Of a stretch of DNA of 64,000 nucleotides, positions 42,335 to 48,433 are shown piece after piece. The notes beneath the pieces are model-generated. The model was not told the DNA's origin, did not search any database, and saw only the letters and a list, made by a program, of their open reading frames with translations. This stretch comes from Chlorobiaceae bacterium (lineage in GTDB: Bacteria > Bacteroidota > Chlorobiia > Chlorobiales > Chlorobiaceae): assembly GCA_013334865.1 (NCBI GenBank), contig JAAXWS010000007.1:62001-126000 (forward strand), in the 5' to 3' direction. The number at the start of each line of letters is the position of its first letter. Within the stretch, counting starts at the first letter, position 1. A program made the position numbers and the translations under genes.

Positions 42335-42486
42335 CGCTTCTCCTTTGTTGCTTTATGGAGGATGCTGTCGTAGAGTTCTATTTACGTCTATTTTTCGAAA
42401 TCCGGTAGATAAGGGCATCTGAAAGAGTGGGGTGATTTGCTACATTTTGTTGTATGGTTCGCTTGCAAACGTCAAAACCAACAGGG

Positions 42487-43371
42487 ATGGCACAGCAGAA
42501 GGTTCTGGTTGCGGGAGCTTCGGGATATCTGGGACGGTACGTCGTCAGTGAGTTTGCCGGACGGGGATATGCCGTTCGGGCCCTGGTCAGGGACAGGAAT
42601 CGGCTTTCGGGAGTCGGGCCGAACTTCGAACCCGATGTATCGGCGCTCGCGGCGGAGGTCCATGTGGGCGATGCGGCCGACAGGCAATCCCTCAGGGGCG
42701 TATGCGAGGGCGTCGATGTCGTGTTCTCCTGCATGGGGCTCACCAAGCCTCAGCATGGCGTCACGAACGAACAGGTCGACCACCTCGGCAACCGGGCGCT
42801 CCTGGAGGAGGCCCTCAAGAGCGGCGTGAGGCGCTTCATCTACGTCTCCGTCTTCAATTCCGACAAGATGCAGGATTCGGACATGGTCCATGCGCACGAG
42901 CTTTTCGTGGCTGACCTGCGGGCTTCGGGCATGGCCTACACCGTCATCCGCCCGACCGCCTACTTCAACGACATGGGCATGTTCTTCGGCTTCGCACGAA
43001 AGGGGCATGTTTTCCTCCTCGGCGACGGAAAAAACCGCTTCAACCCGATCCACGGCGCCGACCTGGCAATGTTCTGCGCCGATGCTGCAACCGATGCGGG
43101 GAACCGGGAGGCCGCCGTCGGCGGACCGGACATCTTCACCTATGACCAGACCAACATCATGGCGTTCGAAGCGCTCGGCCTCCCACCGAAGATCACGCAT
43201 TTGCCCATGTGGATCGGCGACGCAGCCCTGTTTGTCATCGGGCTATTCAACAAGCCGCTCGGGAGCATCATCTCCTTCGCGCTCTCCGTCAGCCGCATGG
43301 ACAACGTCGCCCCGGCATTCGGGACGAGGCGACTGAAGGAGTTCTACCGCGACCTCGCCTTGAGAGGGTGA
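42487..43371 (+). CDS. NmrA-like atypical SDR, NAD(P)-binding protein
   Basis: 294 residues from the ATG at 42487 (the ATG at 42454 adds residues before the Rossmann start). The dinucleotide loop is VLVAGASGYLGRYVV, followed by VDVVFSCMGLTKPQHGVTNE and a central RRFIYVSVFNSDK. A C-terminal segment with two hydrophobic stretches (WIGDAALFVIGLFNKPLGSI) may touch a membrane. It resembles the SDR group that includes the vinyl reductase BciA and photosystem assembly factors, but no specific function can be assigned. It opens the block of SDR and chlorosome genes. Confidence 0.78.
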   Translation: MAQQKVLVAGASGYLGRYVVSEFAGRGYAVRALVRDRNRLSGVGPNFEPDVSALAAEVHVGDAADRQSLRGVCEGVDVVFSCMGLTKPQHGVTNEQVDHLGNRALLEEALKSGVRRFIYVSVFNSDKMQDSDMVHAHELFVADLRASGMAYTVIRPTAYFNDMGMFFGFARKGHVFLLGDGKNRFNPIHGADLAMFCADAATDAGNREAAVGGPDIFTYDQTNIMAFEALGLPPKITHLPMWIGDAALFVIGLFNKPLGSIISFALSVSRMDNVAPAFGTRRLKEFYRDLALRG

Positions 43372-43447
43372 ACCGCACAACCGTGGAGACGGCCCGGTAT
43401 TTTATGGTTTCAACGTTATTTCCACATTCATGGAGGGCTTGCCTGAT

Positions 43448-44067
43448 ATGAAAGGCAAGGTTGCATTGGTCACCGGCGCAAGCAGGGGCATCGGTCGGGC
43501 TACGGCCAGACTTCTCGCCGCCGAGGGTGCCGCCGTCGCGGTGAACTGGTTCCGGAGCGAAAGTGCGGCAAACGGGGTTGTGGCGGAGATCATGGAGGCC
43601 GGCGGCCAGGCTATGGCCGTCAGGGCGGATGTCCGCGACGGTGCGCAGGTTCGTTCGATGGTCGCGGAGTTTGAGAACAGCCTCGGCCCGCTCGGCCTCC
43701 TGGTAAGCAACGCGGCGGTCCGGGAGCATCATCGCCATCTCGAGCACCCTTTCACGTCACCCGTCACCGGGGTTCATCGCCCACTGCACTGCGAAGTCGG
43801 GACTCAACGCCTTCGTCCGCTCGCTGGCCGAGGAGGTCGGCCCATTCGGCATTCGCGTCAATGTTGTCGCTCCTGGCCTGACGCTGACCGACGCCACGGC
43901 ATGGCTGCCCGGGGAGCAGAAGGCGATGATGGCGGACATGGCCCCCCTGAAGCGTGTCGCCCTCCCGGAAGACGTGGCCGGCGAGGTGCTTGCGGTGGCA
44001 TCAGATCACAGCCGTTTTCCTGACCGGCTGCTACATCCCGGTTTCGGGAGGCTTGCTGATGCTGTGA
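43448..44067 (+). pseudogene. FabG-like SDR, broken by internal deletion and frameshifts
   Basis: The first frame gives a normal SDR start (MKGKVALVTGASRGIGRATA) through the NAA motif (LVSNAAV) at about 43717. The middle of the fold is then missing. The C-terminal half appears in another frame as CTAKSGLNAFVRSLAEEVGP and FGIRVNVVAPGLTLTDAT, with the catalytic Tyr replaced by His just before CTAK. Near 44020 a further shift is needed to read LTGCYIPVSGGLLML and the stop at 44065-44067. At least two frameshifts, one deletion and loss of the catalytic residue mark a pseudogene. Confidence 0.8.
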
Positions 44068-44114
44068 AGCGCCAGATGACCCAATGATTACTGCTGATAC
44101 AGTGATCAGCTTCA

Positions 44115-44650
44115 TCAGCCGCAAGGCGCCTGCAGAGCTTCTTCTTCCATCGGAGCCCTGCCTGCCGGGTTGCCAGACCATCCCTGAACCAGCAGTTCGA
44201 CAAACCCCATCGAACAGGCAAGCTCGGCGATGATCAACGGCGTGAACTGCAAGCCAGGCCCGCCGCAAAGACGCATGGTCCGCCAGGCGGGGCGGAACTG
44301 GTTCTTGAAGAAATAGAGTCCCCGGTAGTCGTAGGCGTGCCTGCAGAACGTCACGGCGGAAACGATCAGGCTTTCCATGATGTTCAGCGGTTGGGAGAGG
44401 CATTCCATGATATCCCCTGGAGCCATTCCCTCTTGAGGCCCGCAAGGAGCTTTTGTCCGTTGAAGCGTGACCCGTCGGAAAGATCGAGCACCGCCTCGAT
44501 GCCGGTCCGGAGCGTATCGTGCCGTAACGAAACGAACCGGTCGCTGGTCTCGGGCGGTCACCCCCTGATGACGAACCCCTCGGGAAACGTGTTCCTGAGG
44601 TCGGCATACAGGGCCGGTGTCATAGGTGACCGGTATGTCGGCAAACGGCA
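44115..44650 (-). pseudogene. Decayed gene, probably DUF2156 (MprF C-terminal-like) protein
   Basis: Between the broken SDR and the next gene no open frame is intact, yet protein-like stretches appear on the reverse strand in different frames. One near 44560-44610 reads ALYADLRNTFPEGFVIRG and then a stop. The same frame continues as RFVSLRHDTLRTGIEAVLDL before another stop. A second frame, about 44150-44340, reads YRGLYFFKNQFRPAWRTMRL and TPLIIAELACSMGFVELL. These resemble the C-terminal part of DUF2156/phosphatidylglycerol lysyltransferase-like proteins. The family call is from memory of the motif and is tentative; decay is the firmer conclusion. Confidence 0.45.
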
Positions 44651-44772
44651 GCCAGGTGTGGCCTGAAAACAGCAGGTTAACCTGGTGGTGCCGTGGACTT
44701 GAGGTCTCTACCCTGAGCCAGCTTGATGGCAGGTGTGCACCCAACCTGTCTCGGCAGTATCCGTCTCTGTTG

Positions 44773-45066
44773 TCAGCGTTTGAACGGGATCTCTTTGACC
44801 GGGGGCTTTGGCTTGGGTTTCGAAAGAATGGTTCCCTGCAGGAATTCCATGGCCATCGCGCTGTCATTGAACAGTTCGGAGGCTTTGCTGTTGATGAAGC
44901 CGGCCGTGTTCATAACGGCAGATCCGGCGGCATACGCGCCAAGGCCGACGACGGCGATGCCGGCAATTCCATGGAGAGCTGGTGCAGCGACAGGGGCAAG
45001 CAGGGCAGTTCCTCCCGCGATCCCTACGGCCGTGACTAAAGAATTCTGGCTCATGTTGGTACTCAT
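44773..45066 (-). CDS. Small hydrophobic protein of the chlorosome cluster (possible CsmC/CsmD-type)
   Basis: 97 residues from the ATG at 45064-45066, preceded by GAAGAGAACC. Hydrophobic centre with Gly/Ala helices (PALHGIAGIAVVGLGAYAAG) and a basic Pro/Lys C-terminus (SKPKPKPPVKEIPFKR). The core resembles that of the protein at 45701, which has PALLHAVTGLIVGGIGL: both show PAL-H-x-x-x-G-x-x-V-x-G-x-G. The two are therefore probably paralogues. Location beside a CsmB/F-family gene, with a strong divergent promoter, suggests a chlorosome envelope protein. That function is inferred. The longer frame to 45177 overlaps the promoter leader. Confidence 0.55.
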   Translation of the reverse strand: MSTNMSQNSLVTAVGIAGGTALLAPVAAPALHGIAGIAVVGLGAYAAGSAVMNTAGFINSKASELFNDSAMAMEFLQGTILSKPKPKPPVKEIPFKR

Positions 45067-45276
45067 GGTTCTCTTCGTGGTGATGGCAGTTGATGAGGTG
45101 TCAGCTTGTGGCCCCGGCGGCCATAAGCCGCTTCCGCTGGAATGCTCTGCCGCTGTTTGGTTTGGGGCTTGCTGCATGGTTTCCGTTCACCCGGCTTGAG
45201 CACCCGTGAAGGAACAATTCCACAGGGCGGTGCCGAATCATTTTGCATGGGCTGATCCCATGTTGAATTTGCCAAG

Positions 45277-45304
45277 ATTATAATAAAAGTAAGGAATAGG
45301 TCAA
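45277..45304 (-). promoter_or_regulatory. Promoter of the 44773-45066 gene
   Basis: The reverse strand reads TTGACC (45299-45304), a 16-base spacer, then TATAAT (45277-45282), an almost ideal sigma-70 pair. It is back to back with the promoter of the CsmB/F-family gene. Confidence 0.65.
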
Positions 45305-45330
45305 TGGCTTATTGATTTGCCGCTATAGGC

Positions 45331-45372
45331 TTGACTTTTGGGTGCAAAAATTATAATATTTATAGTAATTGG
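45331..45372 (+). promoter_or_regulatory. Promoter of the CsmB/CsmF-family gene, with conserved start-site sequence
   Basis: TTGACT (45331-45336), 17 bases, TAATAT (45354-45359). The -10 and the following bases, TAATATTTATAGTAATTGG (45354-45372), match the csmE region at 48131-48149 at 15 of 19 positions. Confidence 0.65.
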
Positions 45373-45401
45373 ATTGACCGAATAACCAAAATTTCACGCA
45401 A

Positions 45402-45629
45402 ATGGCAAACGAAATGCAAACTCAGGAGACAGCAGGCATCAACACGATTTCTGATGCAGTGGGAAAGGTTGCCCAGATGCAGATGGATCTTGTATCCAAT
45501 GTGATGACGACCTCGCTGGAAGCGTTCAAATCCGTCAACAAATTCTCGATGGATCTGGCAGTCAATGCGGCAAATGCACTGAATCAGGTGTTGGAGGGAA
45601 TCTCCGCTGCAGTGGCACCCAAAAAGTAA
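45402..45629 (+). CDS. CsmB/CsmF-family chlorosome envelope protein
   Basis: 75 residues. The pattern (polar start, two amphipathic helices, and a final QVLEGISAAVAPKK) matches the CsmB/CsmF family of small chlorosome envelope proteins, which end in the same ..SAVAPKK-type tail. The protein would lie in the single-layer lipid envelope of the chlorosome. Which of CsmB or CsmF it is cannot be fixed without alignment. A strong promoter sits about 45 bases upstream; no clear ribosome site precedes the ATG. The next gene, 71 bases downstream, is likely co-transcribed. Confidence 0.75.
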   Translation: MANEMQTQETAGINTISDAVGKVAQMQMDLVSNVMTTSLEAFKSVNKFSMDLAVNAANALNQVLEGISAAVAPKK

Positions 45630-45700
45630 GCCAACCGGAAACGCAGGGAGGGCTTCGTCTTCCGGCGTGGAGGATTTCCAACATCTTAATCTGGCGTATC

Positions 45701-46018
45701 ATGCCTGATACAACCGCGGCTACGCAAACCGCCATCGGGAGTTCTGTTCCCGATGGCGTCAGAGGACTTGCCATGGCTGCACCCGTGGTGGGGATGCCGG
45801 CACTGCTCCACGCCGTGACCGGGTTGATCGTTGGCGGGATCGGGTTGGCCCCGATATTGCTGGCGTCGGGGGTTGTGGCAAAGCAGTTCCTGCCGGCTGG
45901 CATGAGCTTCGGGGATATTTTCCAGTCCATCAGCCAGACTCCCGCCCGGAAACCCGCGACAACGGCTTCCGAAACCCCGAAAGAGGAGCAGAAGCCGGCG
46001 GAGGGCTCTTCCTGCTGA
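45701..46018 (+). CDS. Small hydrophobic protein of the chlorosome cluster (possible CsmC/CsmD-type)
   Basis: 105 residues. Two hydrophobic helices (PALLHAVTGLIVGGIGLAPI, then LLASGVVAKQFLPAGM) are followed by a polar Pro/Thr/Lys tail ending SSC. The first helix parallels that of the protein at 44773. Length and layout fit the CsmC/CsmD group of chlorosome envelope proteins, but this is a resemblance only. It follows the CsmB/F-family gene on the same strand. The nearest ribosome-like sequence (GGAGGA) is about 27 bases upstream, too far for a normal start. Confidence 0.55.
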   Translation: MPDTTAATQTAIGSSVPDGVRGLAMAAPVVGMPALLHAVTGLIVGGIGLAPILLASGVVAKQFLPAGMSFGDIFQSISQTPARKPATTASETPKEEQKPAEGSSC

Positions 46019-46560
46019 TCAATCCGATGCCCATGCATCGATGTGGGGCCATCGAACGGTTGGGATTCCGTCAGTCATCGGGAGGAGATGGAAAATTCCT
46101 GCGCAACGCCGATCCTCGGATGCCGGTGTCAGATGCTTCCGGATATTGCGATGTTGCCGAATCCTTGACTGCCGTCATGGATGATGTGGTTCCTCGTGAC
46201 TTTTGCCCAACCGGATGTTTTGATCAGGCACGGTCTCGCGACGGATCCGTCCAGCTCTGCGGTGCCGGTCAGTCCTTTGTTGTTTCTTCAGCATTGATGG
46301 TGCCCGGGAAAGCCCGGCCCAATAGTTATCCGGTTATTCCTCCGATGAGTTGCCTCCCTGCTGTCATCTCCTTTTTGCCATGAACTGCCTTGCCATGTCA
46401 TATCGGCCATCCTGCCGAGGCAATGATTCCCGGCGTGAGGAACTCGCTTGCGAATCCGGAATGGGCCTCCGGGAGGTGGCATGGCTTATGGAGGACGCGC
46501 GGCCATGCTTGGAGAGACGCTGCTTGTTTTGGTGATTCAACAACCCTTTATCAGTTTATC
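46019..46560. other. Intergenic region with no recognised gene
   Basis: Open frames here (for example plus-strand 46027-46383 and minus-strand 46288-46482) show no domain, signal or membrane pattern I can recognise, and their composition looks random. It may hold remnants of decayed genes, as does the region at 43448-44650, but no specific one can be named. Confidence 0.4.
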
Positions 46561-47262
46561 ATGGGTACTCAGGATTTTTCAGGCATGGTTCTGGTCGCCG
46601 GGGCAACAGGACGGACCGGAGTGTGGGTGGTCCGCAGGCTCCAGGCGTACGGTATCGATTATCGCCTTTTTGTCCGTTCGGAGTCGAAAGCGATCGCCTG
46701 TTTCGGGCCGCTCCCTCCGGAACGACTGGTGGTGGGATCGATCGAATCTCCTGCCGACCTGGAGAATGCCGTTGCCGGCTGCAGCGCCGTTATTTCAGCG
46801 ATAGGTGCGTATGTGACCGACCCAGATGCCCCGCCGCCCTCCGTCATCGACAGGGACGGGATGTCGACTTTCGCAAAAGTGGCCAGGGAAAACGGGGTCA
46901 GGCAGTTCATCCAGATCACCTCCCTGGCCGTGACCAGGCCGGAGCATCCGATGAACAGGTACGGGGGAGTGCTGAACATGAAGCTACAGGGGGAGGCGGC
47001 AATCCGCTCGGCCTTTTCCGATACAGGTGGATCCCATACGATCCTTCGGCCAGGCGGCCTTCAGGACGGTGAGCCATTCCAGAACCGGCTGCAGTTCGGT
47101 ACCGGGGACACGTTGATGGGCGTCATCAACAGAAGCGACCTTGCCGAGTGTGCCGTCATATCTCTTTGGCATCCGAAAGCGGTCAACAGGACCTTCGAGC
47201 TGATCAATGGCGAGCCTGGCGTCCAGACCGGTCTTGAACCATTTTTCGGACAGCTGCCCTGA
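46561..47262 (+). CDS. NAD(P)-binding SDR (NmrA-like, SDR_a5 type)
   Basis: 233 residues from the ATG at 46561; a longer frame to 46390 exists but has no family match upstream. Rossmann start MVLVAGATGRTGVWVVRRLQ, the second-strand segment DYRLFVRSESKA, CSAVISAIGAY, and QFIQITSLAV in place of the classical YxxxK. These proteins often act as assembly or redox-sensing factors rather than true dehydrogenases. Position between chlorosome genes suggests a link to pigment or chlorosome work (inference only). It converges with the 2Fe-2S protein gene. Confidence 0.7.
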   Translation: MGTQDFSGMVLVAGATGRTGVWVVRRLQAYGIDYRLFVRSESKAIACFGPLPPERLVVGSIESPADLENAVAGCSAVISAIGAYVTDPDAPPPSVIDRDGMSTFAKVARENGVRQFIQITSLAVTRPEHPMNRYGGVLNMKLQGEAAIRSAFSDTGGSHTILRPGGLQDGEPFQNRLQFGTGDTLMGVINRSDLAECAVISLWHPKAVNRTFELINGEPGVQTGLEPFFGQLP

Positions 47263-47372
47263 CCTGTTCTGTCCGGCGCGTGCGGTTGTGGCACGTGCCG
47301 GCACTCCTCCATCGGCCGGGGGCGTTCGCCCTCAGTTCACCCCCGGATTCCCATCCCCGCCTGGCGGGTTGA

Positions 47373-48068
47373 TCATGTGGCGGGCTGATCTCCGCTGTTT
47401 TTCCTTGGTGTGTACTTGATCGGGATCGCCTTGCCTGACTTTTTATTGGATTTGTTGGCCATGAACGGCAGGTCGACGGGCAGTTGCAGGGTCGGCAGTT
47501 GAACCGGGAGGCTCCGCGGCAGTTCAACAGGCAGTCTGCTGATGGCCTCCATCACCTGATCCTTGAACGGCAGGTATTCCGGGAGGGTTTCGACGGTGAG
47601 CCCTATAAGTCCTTCCACTGAATCCTTGAAATCCTCCAGTTCGTTTTCATTGAGGATATCCCCTTTTACCACACGGCCTACGAGGTTGCCGATACCGGGG
47701 ATGAGCTGGCTGGCTACCCCCCTTCCGATTTCCGCCCCGTAGCTGAACAGCGGCAATGGATTGGTGAGGAACGTCCGGCGCACCATCTCGGGCCTGGAGA
47801 GCACCTTTATGGTGCCGTCCTGAACAATGGTAGCGCGGCAGGCCATCCGGTAGCCGAAAGCGATCTGATCGGCTGTCAGGAATGCCTGTTCGACATCGTT
47901 GGCCGGTGAAAGGCACTCGGCACCCTCCAGCACGACTACCTGGCAAGTCTGGCATACCCCATGTCCGCCGCAGAGATAGCCTACATGGCTATGGTTTATC
48001 CTGGCGGCCTTTGAAAGGGTTTGCCCGATTGAGGCGTTACAGGTTTTGTCGTTGATGATGAGGTTCAT
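47373..48068 (-). CDS. CsmI/CsmJ/CsmX-type chlorosome envelope 2Fe-2S protein
   Basis: 231 residues from the ATG at 48066-48068. The N-terminal ferredoxin domain (about 1-90) has adrenodoxin-type cysteines: CGGHGVCQTC and a fourth Cys in YRMACRATI. The rest (about 105-205) is the chlorosome-specific part with NPLPLFSYGAEIGRG and GIGNLVGRVVKGDI. It has a C-terminal Pro/Leu repeat (LPVELPRSLPVQLPTLQLP). Known relatives in Chlorobaculum quench or restore chlorosome energy transfer in response to oxygen by redox change of the cluster. Length is close to CsmJ and CsmX. It is divergent from csmE. A longer frame to 48191 overlaps the csmE start and is not used. Confidence 0.85.
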   Translation of the reverse strand: MNLIINDKTCNASIGQTLSKAARINHSHVGYLCGGHGVCQTCQVVVLEGAECLSPANDVEQAFLTADQIAFGYRMACRATIVQDGTIKVLSRPEMVRRTFLTNPLPLFSYGAEIGRGVASQLIPGIGNLVGRVVKGDILNENELEDFKDSVEGLIGLTVETLPEYLPFKDQVMEAISRLPVELPRSLPVQLPTLQLPVDLPFMANKSNKKSGKAIPIKYTPRKNSGDQPAT

Positions 48069-48108
48069 GGCTTTGCTGCTTGGCCTTGATTGAGGTTGGT
48101 ATCTGTTT

Positions 48109-48149
48109 TTGAAAAAATAGGCAATTAATATACTATTTGTAGTAATCGC
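48109..48149 (+). promoter_or_regulatory. csmE promoter with conserved start-site sequence
   Basis: TTGAAA (48109-48114), 16 bases, TACTAT (48131-48136). The bases TACTATTTGTAGTAATCGC (48131-48149) match 45354-45372 at 15 of 19 positions, so the two chlorosome genes share their -10/+1 region. Confidence 0.6.
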
Positions 48150-48181
48150 ATCTGATCCCGACAACCTAACCATCCTTGAGT

Positions 48182-48433
48182 ATGATGTCAAACCGAATGG
48201 CTGGGGCCTTTACCCGTGGTGCGGAAGCATACGGACGCATTCTCGAAGTGTTTATAGACGGCCACTGGTGGGTGGTTGGTGATTATCTGGAGAATGTGGG
48301 CAAGTGCACCAAGCGGCTCGGGGCAAATGCTTACCCGCAACTCTACGGCGGGAGCGGATTGCGGGGCTCTTCGCCCGAAATCTCAGGCAAGGCTGTTCCG
48401 TCAAAGGATATAGAGAGCAGGTTCTGCAACTGA
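48182..48433 (+). CDS. csmE: CsmE, CsmA-like chlorosome envelope protein
   Basis: 83 residues from the ATG at 48182 (a second ATG follows at once, and a TTG at 48176 could also serve). The core YGRILEVFIDGHWWVVGDYL carries the His in GHW that binds bacteriochlorophyll a in CsmA, followed by LGANAYPQLYGGSG and GLRGSSPEISGKAVPSKDIE, the CsmA/CsmE tail. It differs from CsmA in having WW after GH and a Cys-bearing segment (VGKCTKR), which fits CsmE. It would sit in the baseplate or envelope facing the FMO protein. A clear terminator follows. Confidence 0.85.
   Translation: MMSNRMAGAFTRGAEAYGRILEVFIDGHWWVVGDYLENVGKCTKRLGANAYPQLYGGSGLRGSSPEISGKAVPSKDIESRFCN

Follow-up and report, generated by a model that had tools for sequence, protein, structure and literature searches.

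Six genes at positions 44773-48433 of the window, the whole 64,000-nucleotide stretch of Chlorobiaceae DNA analyzed here, probably form a rearranged and partly decayed second copy of the envelope half of an accessory gene module, a judgment made jointly with the mechanism proposed below for that module. The module itself is tentatively read as a mobile, two-component-regulated set of envelope and baseplate paralogs, a bacteriochlorophyll (BChl) synthase, a methyltransferase and a family of small proteins, which may rebuild the antenna on a signal. No description of the regulator-linked module was found in the open papers that were searched, and earlier notice in subscription papers is possible.

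Gene Content of the Locus

All six genes are open and intact. A sequence-only reading of this DNA had described a compact chlorosome envelope cluster of several protein families with two short-chain dehydrogenases (SDRs). The families were borne out, but only one SDR lies inside 44773-48433. The features of the locus and its flank are:

44773..45066, minus strand: small1, a PALHG-family hydrophobic protein of 97 aa
45402..45629, plus strand: CsmB-type protein, 75 aa; slot the same in relatives
45701..46018, plus strand: small2, a hydrophobic protein of 105 aa and distant member of the small1 family
46561..47262, plus strand: atypical NAD(P)-binding SDR (NAD_binding_10)
47373..48068, minus strand: CsmX-type [2Fe-2S] envelope protein, an extra paralog (Fer2)
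48182..48433, plus strand: CsmE-type protein (CsmA/CsmE; PF02043)
44151..44744, minus strand: decayed LPG_synthase_C (DUF2156) gene, located by tblastn (PF09924 on the intact homolog)
43430-44087, plus strand: FabG-like short-chain dehydrogenase, now a pseudogene that is frameshifted and has probably lost a segment
42454-43371, plus strand: second NmrA-like SDR, 305 aa, outside 44773-48433

The calls of CsmE- and CsmI/J/X-type proteins made in the same reading stand, that of a CsmB-type protein is probable, and the clustering goes beyond chance, the gene set being recurrent across many genomes. The CsmE-type protein matches PF02043 (Bac_chlorC) at E=1.7e-33 (114.9 bits, cut-off 25) and the solved CsmA structures 2K37/5LCB at 1.3e-10. 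Its DGHWW aligns with the EGHWE of these structures; the histidine of the GHW motif, a BChl a ligand in CsmA, is kept and is by this alignment a putative BChl a-binding residue. The genome from which the window comes (G000) holds four PF02043 copies, the fourth being an apparently solitary CsmE-like gene on another contig (C16; L046:12354-12596) that the tree places close to the copy in the window. The CsmX-type protein carries an N-terminal Fer2 domain (E=7.2e-12) and, beyond it, a C-terminal extension of the chlorosome type, and its homologs align over most of their length in Chlorobiaceae, most of which have two to four CsmX/I/J-type paralogs per genome. It is 57% identical to a lone copy in genome G052, presumably csmX, as against 42-49% to a tandem pair there, presumably csmIJ. 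The CsmB-type protein has no Pfam model and, set against the ORFs of relatives only, is alike to their CsmB-type ORFs at the same position. Measured against the Chlorobaculum tepidum envelope set (CsmA/E, CsmB/F, CsmC/D, CsmH, CsmI/J/X), these three proteins are recognizable paralogs, new members of known families, the CsmB-type one probably so. They are encoded together in the window, whereas ordinary csm loci are scattered, with csmE, csmAC, csmB and csmIJ spread over four contigs in one published case (PMC8302410).

A Family of Small Hydrophobic Proteins

The two small proteins share a P-A-L-x-H stretch, as the sequence-only reading had noticed, and are hydrophobic over roughly 40-50 residues within their first two thirds. 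Members of the small1 family bear a near-invariant A-P-x-A-x-P-x-x-H-G-x-A-G motif followed by a glycine-rich stretch. The mutual kinship that had been claimed for the pair is weak in a head-to-head comparison (hhalign E=1.3e-3, probability 19%) and firmer by way of a universal (core) family member, which small1 matches at E=1.7e-23 and small2, less strongly, at E=1.7e-5 (probability 79%). This universal form seems to be the member that adjoins a methionine sulfoxide reductase gene (msrAB) in G052 and in the window's own genome. In a profile search of 394 genomes of the phylum, 84 of the 86 from Chlorobiaceae had a match; the 12 from other families of the order had none, and of the 296 others a single one matched, weakly (1e-4). 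A PF02043 gene is present in all six genomes sampled for it from those other families. No clear occurrence in non-phototrophs was thus seen that would tell against the earlier suggestion of a new envelope family.

For neither small protein did Pfam or NCBIfam give a notable match, a PDB profile search with small1 returned nothing, and AlphaFold models of both are poor (pLDDT 53). The alternative that these are CsmC/CsmD-type proteins, also raised in the earlier reading, had to be abandoned. With true CsmC and CsmD genes, located next to csmA and csmE in the genomes of relatives, as references, neither small protein matches PF11098 (2.1e-69 for the true CsmC of a related genome), and small1 shows no relation to CsmC (hhalign E=0.6) or to CsmD (0.18); the pair departs here from the C. 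tepidum envelope set. As judged by profile comparison, small1 and small2 belong to one unnamed family that is essentially confined to Chlorobiaceae within the phylum, and a name for it was found neither in Pfam or NCBIfam nor in the literature searched. It is called the PALHG family here.

On the present reading, small1 is a candidate chlorosome-associated membrane protein. The PALHG proteins might instead belong to the cytoplasmic membrane or to a stress response and have no link with chlorosomes, their clustering with csm genes reflecting co-regulation only; the msrAB neighbor of the core copy and the strong hydrophobicity would both suit such a role. This is nonetheless unlikely, given that two PALHG genes adjoin csm genes in module after module, that further ones lie near bchQ-type genes, and that the family is essentially absent from the genomes tested outside Chlorobiaceae. 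Pairs of a PALHG and a bchQ-type gene, within a few kb of each other and outside the module, occur in Chlorobium-group genomes (e.g., G141 C89, G164 C1, and G180 C71), and of 78 BchQ-type genes at least 15 lie no more than 6 kb from a PALHG gene. Another short PALHG-like ORF (L044:2459-2680) is present in G052, a genome without the accessory module.

The Accessory Module

In relatives, the genes of the locus recur in a longer and conserved array. A response regulator and a multi-PAS histidine kinase are followed by a BchK paralog, a B12 radical-SAM gene and a csmE-type gene, and then, on the opposite strand, by a csmB-type gene, small2, small1 and a gene for an LPG_synthase_C protein. About 30 Chlorobiaceae have the full module, both green ones and brown ones (bciD+), with synteny in loci L045/L137, L078, L080, L081, L083-L086, L092, and L134-L142. 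Wherever the flanks extend far enough to tell, in 14 loci, the kinase and regulator adjoin the BchK paralog. A CsmX-type gene and an SDR of the window type lie within the module neighborhood of G067 (L007) and G194, and in G110 and G090 a gene of the CsmX type comes after the module, at a distance of no more than a few kb. The genome of the window carries the full module on contig C37, the window locus being on C36. The latter best matches a second envelope set of G067 (contig C85: CsmE, small2, CsmB, small1, LPG; 69% identity for small1), to which CsmX and the SDR are added, and retains only envelope proteins, CsmX and the SDR.

A PALHG gene lies within 6 kb of at least 22 of the 25 radical-SAM genes that have BchK no more than 4 kb away, and of at least 10 of the 77 that do not, five of these ten being at further likely module copies; the chance expectation is about 1%. 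In trees of both BchK and the radical-SAM protein, the module copies of C. limnaeum, G110, and G121 join those of C. luteolum, G060, and G090 (support 100/99 and 100/100), while core copies mostly follow genus. Because module copies group across genera in this way, the trees suggest that the module moved between genera as a unit. The module copies make up two or three groups and no single supported clade, which is compatible with one origin as well as with several. Dispersed copies are also seen, for example in G154.

The BchK of the module scores above the PRK12392 cut-off, as a second BChl c synthase, and its copies group apart from the core copies. BchK2 paralogs have been known, with their roles stated to be unknown, and every BChl e producer has one (PMC7242693); esterification of BChl e/f has been assigned to BchK2 (PMC9066304). 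The module enzyme, encoded on C37 and so outside the window, resembles the published BchK2 in being a second synthase and may belong to that clade. No account of such a bchK paralog linked to a histidine kinase and response regulator, csm paralogs or PALHG genes turned up in the literature searched. The accompanying radical-SAM protein, 69-83% identical to other Chlorobiaceae copies, has radical SAM and B12-binding domains, the latter below the gathering score. It is probably a second B12-dependent radical-SAM methyltransferase of the BchR type, a designation reached by exclusion because BchQ could be recognized beside a bchF/bchV homolog, an adjacency that also holds in C. tepidum. Methylation by BchQ and BchR tunes chlorosome absorption (PMC7242693), and Gomez Maqueo Chew (2007), as cited in that review, is reported by its title to have found this methylation needed for low-light adaptation.

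Selection and Decay

Compared with their orthologs in G067 (AM_0510), at dS > 1, the genes of the locus have dN/dS values of 0.17 (small1), 0.20 (CsmB-type), 0.28 (small2), 0.16 (SDR), 0.16 (CsmX-type), and 0.02 (CsmE-type). All six are under purifying selection. Decay is seen in the flank. The LPG-synthase-like gene, whose intact LPG_synthase_C homolog comes after small1 in relatives, has a frameshift, an in-frame stop and internal deletions, and the FabG-like pseudogene sits beside it. With this gene dead and the regulator, BchK paralog and radical-SAM gene absent, the window copy could be fading.

The two pseudogenes would fit an alternative in which the paralogs are redundant, extra copies of ordinary envelope genes that arose by duplication and transfer, raise dosage or act as spares without a special role, and are decaying in this genome. 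The four PF02043 copies in this genome fit that explanation, as does the dispensability of csmC, by which at least one envelope protein is dispensable (PMC12214013). The explanation is nevertheless a doubtful one: the remaining genes are under strong purifying selection, their order with the two-component and pigment genes is conserved across genera, and the cluster-specific groups in the trees argue for a kept function.

Short-Chain Dehydrogenases

The SDR at 46561-47262 matches NAD_binding_10 at E=3.5e-27, is 78% identical to the copy within the accessory module of G067/L007, and has At5g02240 and biliverdin IX-beta/flavin reductase as relatives in the PDB. It is a paralog of an SDR that adjoins csmE-csmD. 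Whether SDRs co-occur with csm genes had been posed as a check by the sequence-only reading, and they do: window-type genes lie within the accessory modules of G067 and G194, and in at least 11 genomes, drawn from both genera, the paralog stands next to a csmE-type gene (L043:7945-9532 and equivalents). The paralog is convergent with the csmE-type gene, csmD lying between the two in Chlorobaculum, and is apparently an undescribed conserved neighbor of the classical csmED locus. The NmrA-like SDR at 42454-43371 is about 30% identical to the csmE-linked SDR; in relatives, no copy of it turned up at the module loci.

A Proposed Mechanism

In the best model at present, the paralogs of the module would be inducible as a set and would alter, along with the make-up of the envelope, how BChl is alkylated or esterified. 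The kinase and regulator pair would sense a light-, redox- or energy-linked cue and switch on the set; PAS domains are not specific to light, and none of the regulators whose Pfam domains were determined (three kinases and one regulator) has a phytochrome domain. The radical-SAM enzyme and BchK variant could then alter alkylation or esterification of BChl, shifting the absorption of the aggregates, while a baseplate and envelope to match would be built from the CsmE, CsmB, and CsmX paralogs and the two small helical proteins. A lipid of the envelope may be the substrate of the LPG-like enzyme. The SDR may assist in pigment hand-over, by analogy with Ycf39, which acts beside ChlG in the Ycf39-ChlG-Hlip complex of cyanobacteria (PMC6175206). 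The likeness is one of gene position, an atypical SDR adjoining the (bacterio)chlorophyll synthase gene in G067/L007, and unlike that complex the module shows no Hlip-like proteins.

If the model is correct, a module of this kind would be the green sulfur counterpart of the cyanobacterial far-red and low-light acclimation clusters. In far-red light photoacclimation (FaRLiP) clusters, regulator genes stand beside paralogous antenna and pigment-enzyme genes. The module has the same layout, although the antenna and the regulators are different, and the comparison is an analogy only, the module being known from its genes. The roles of the second BChl c synthases of green sulfur bacteria were stated to be unknown in a 2020 review (PMC7242693), and one such gene is now placed in a conserved, regulator-linked module. 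The question of their role becomes directly testable, C. limnaeum being genetically tractable and a carrier of the module.

Relation to BChl e Synthesis

The assignment of BChlide e/f esterification to BchK2 (PMC9066304), and the presence of both the module and bciD in the brown C. limnaeum, raise the alternative that the module is part of the gene set for brown color, its paralogs serving BChl e chlorosomes. The phyletic pattern largely refutes this, and it is now highly improbable. BciD was recognized by reference to L093:6121-7329, beside cruB in C. limnaeum, where a cruB/bciD cluster has been described (PMC3613366). The gene is present in only 9 of 98 genomes and absent from that of the window, which like C. 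luteolum carries the module without it, as do most module carriers. Among the nine bciD+ genomes, the full module is found in G148 and G060 and a partial one in G171, with none seen in the other six. In C. limnaeum itself, the module maps to 0.48 Mb of the chromosome (about 476-485 kb, with small2 and small1 at 483.4-484.4 kb), and bciD and cruB map to 2.44 Mb. Since it is found both with and without bciD, and without it in the genome of the window, the module is not the BChl e gene set.

A radical-SAM gene near a bchF homolog is of the BchQ type and is not bciD, the real BciD being the protein encoded beside cruB. The 2.44 Mb region of C. limnaeum (L093:4001-10142) holds cruB, bciD, a bchF homolog and a second bchQ-type gene together, and adjoins genes found in G052 on the flanks of csmE-csmD.
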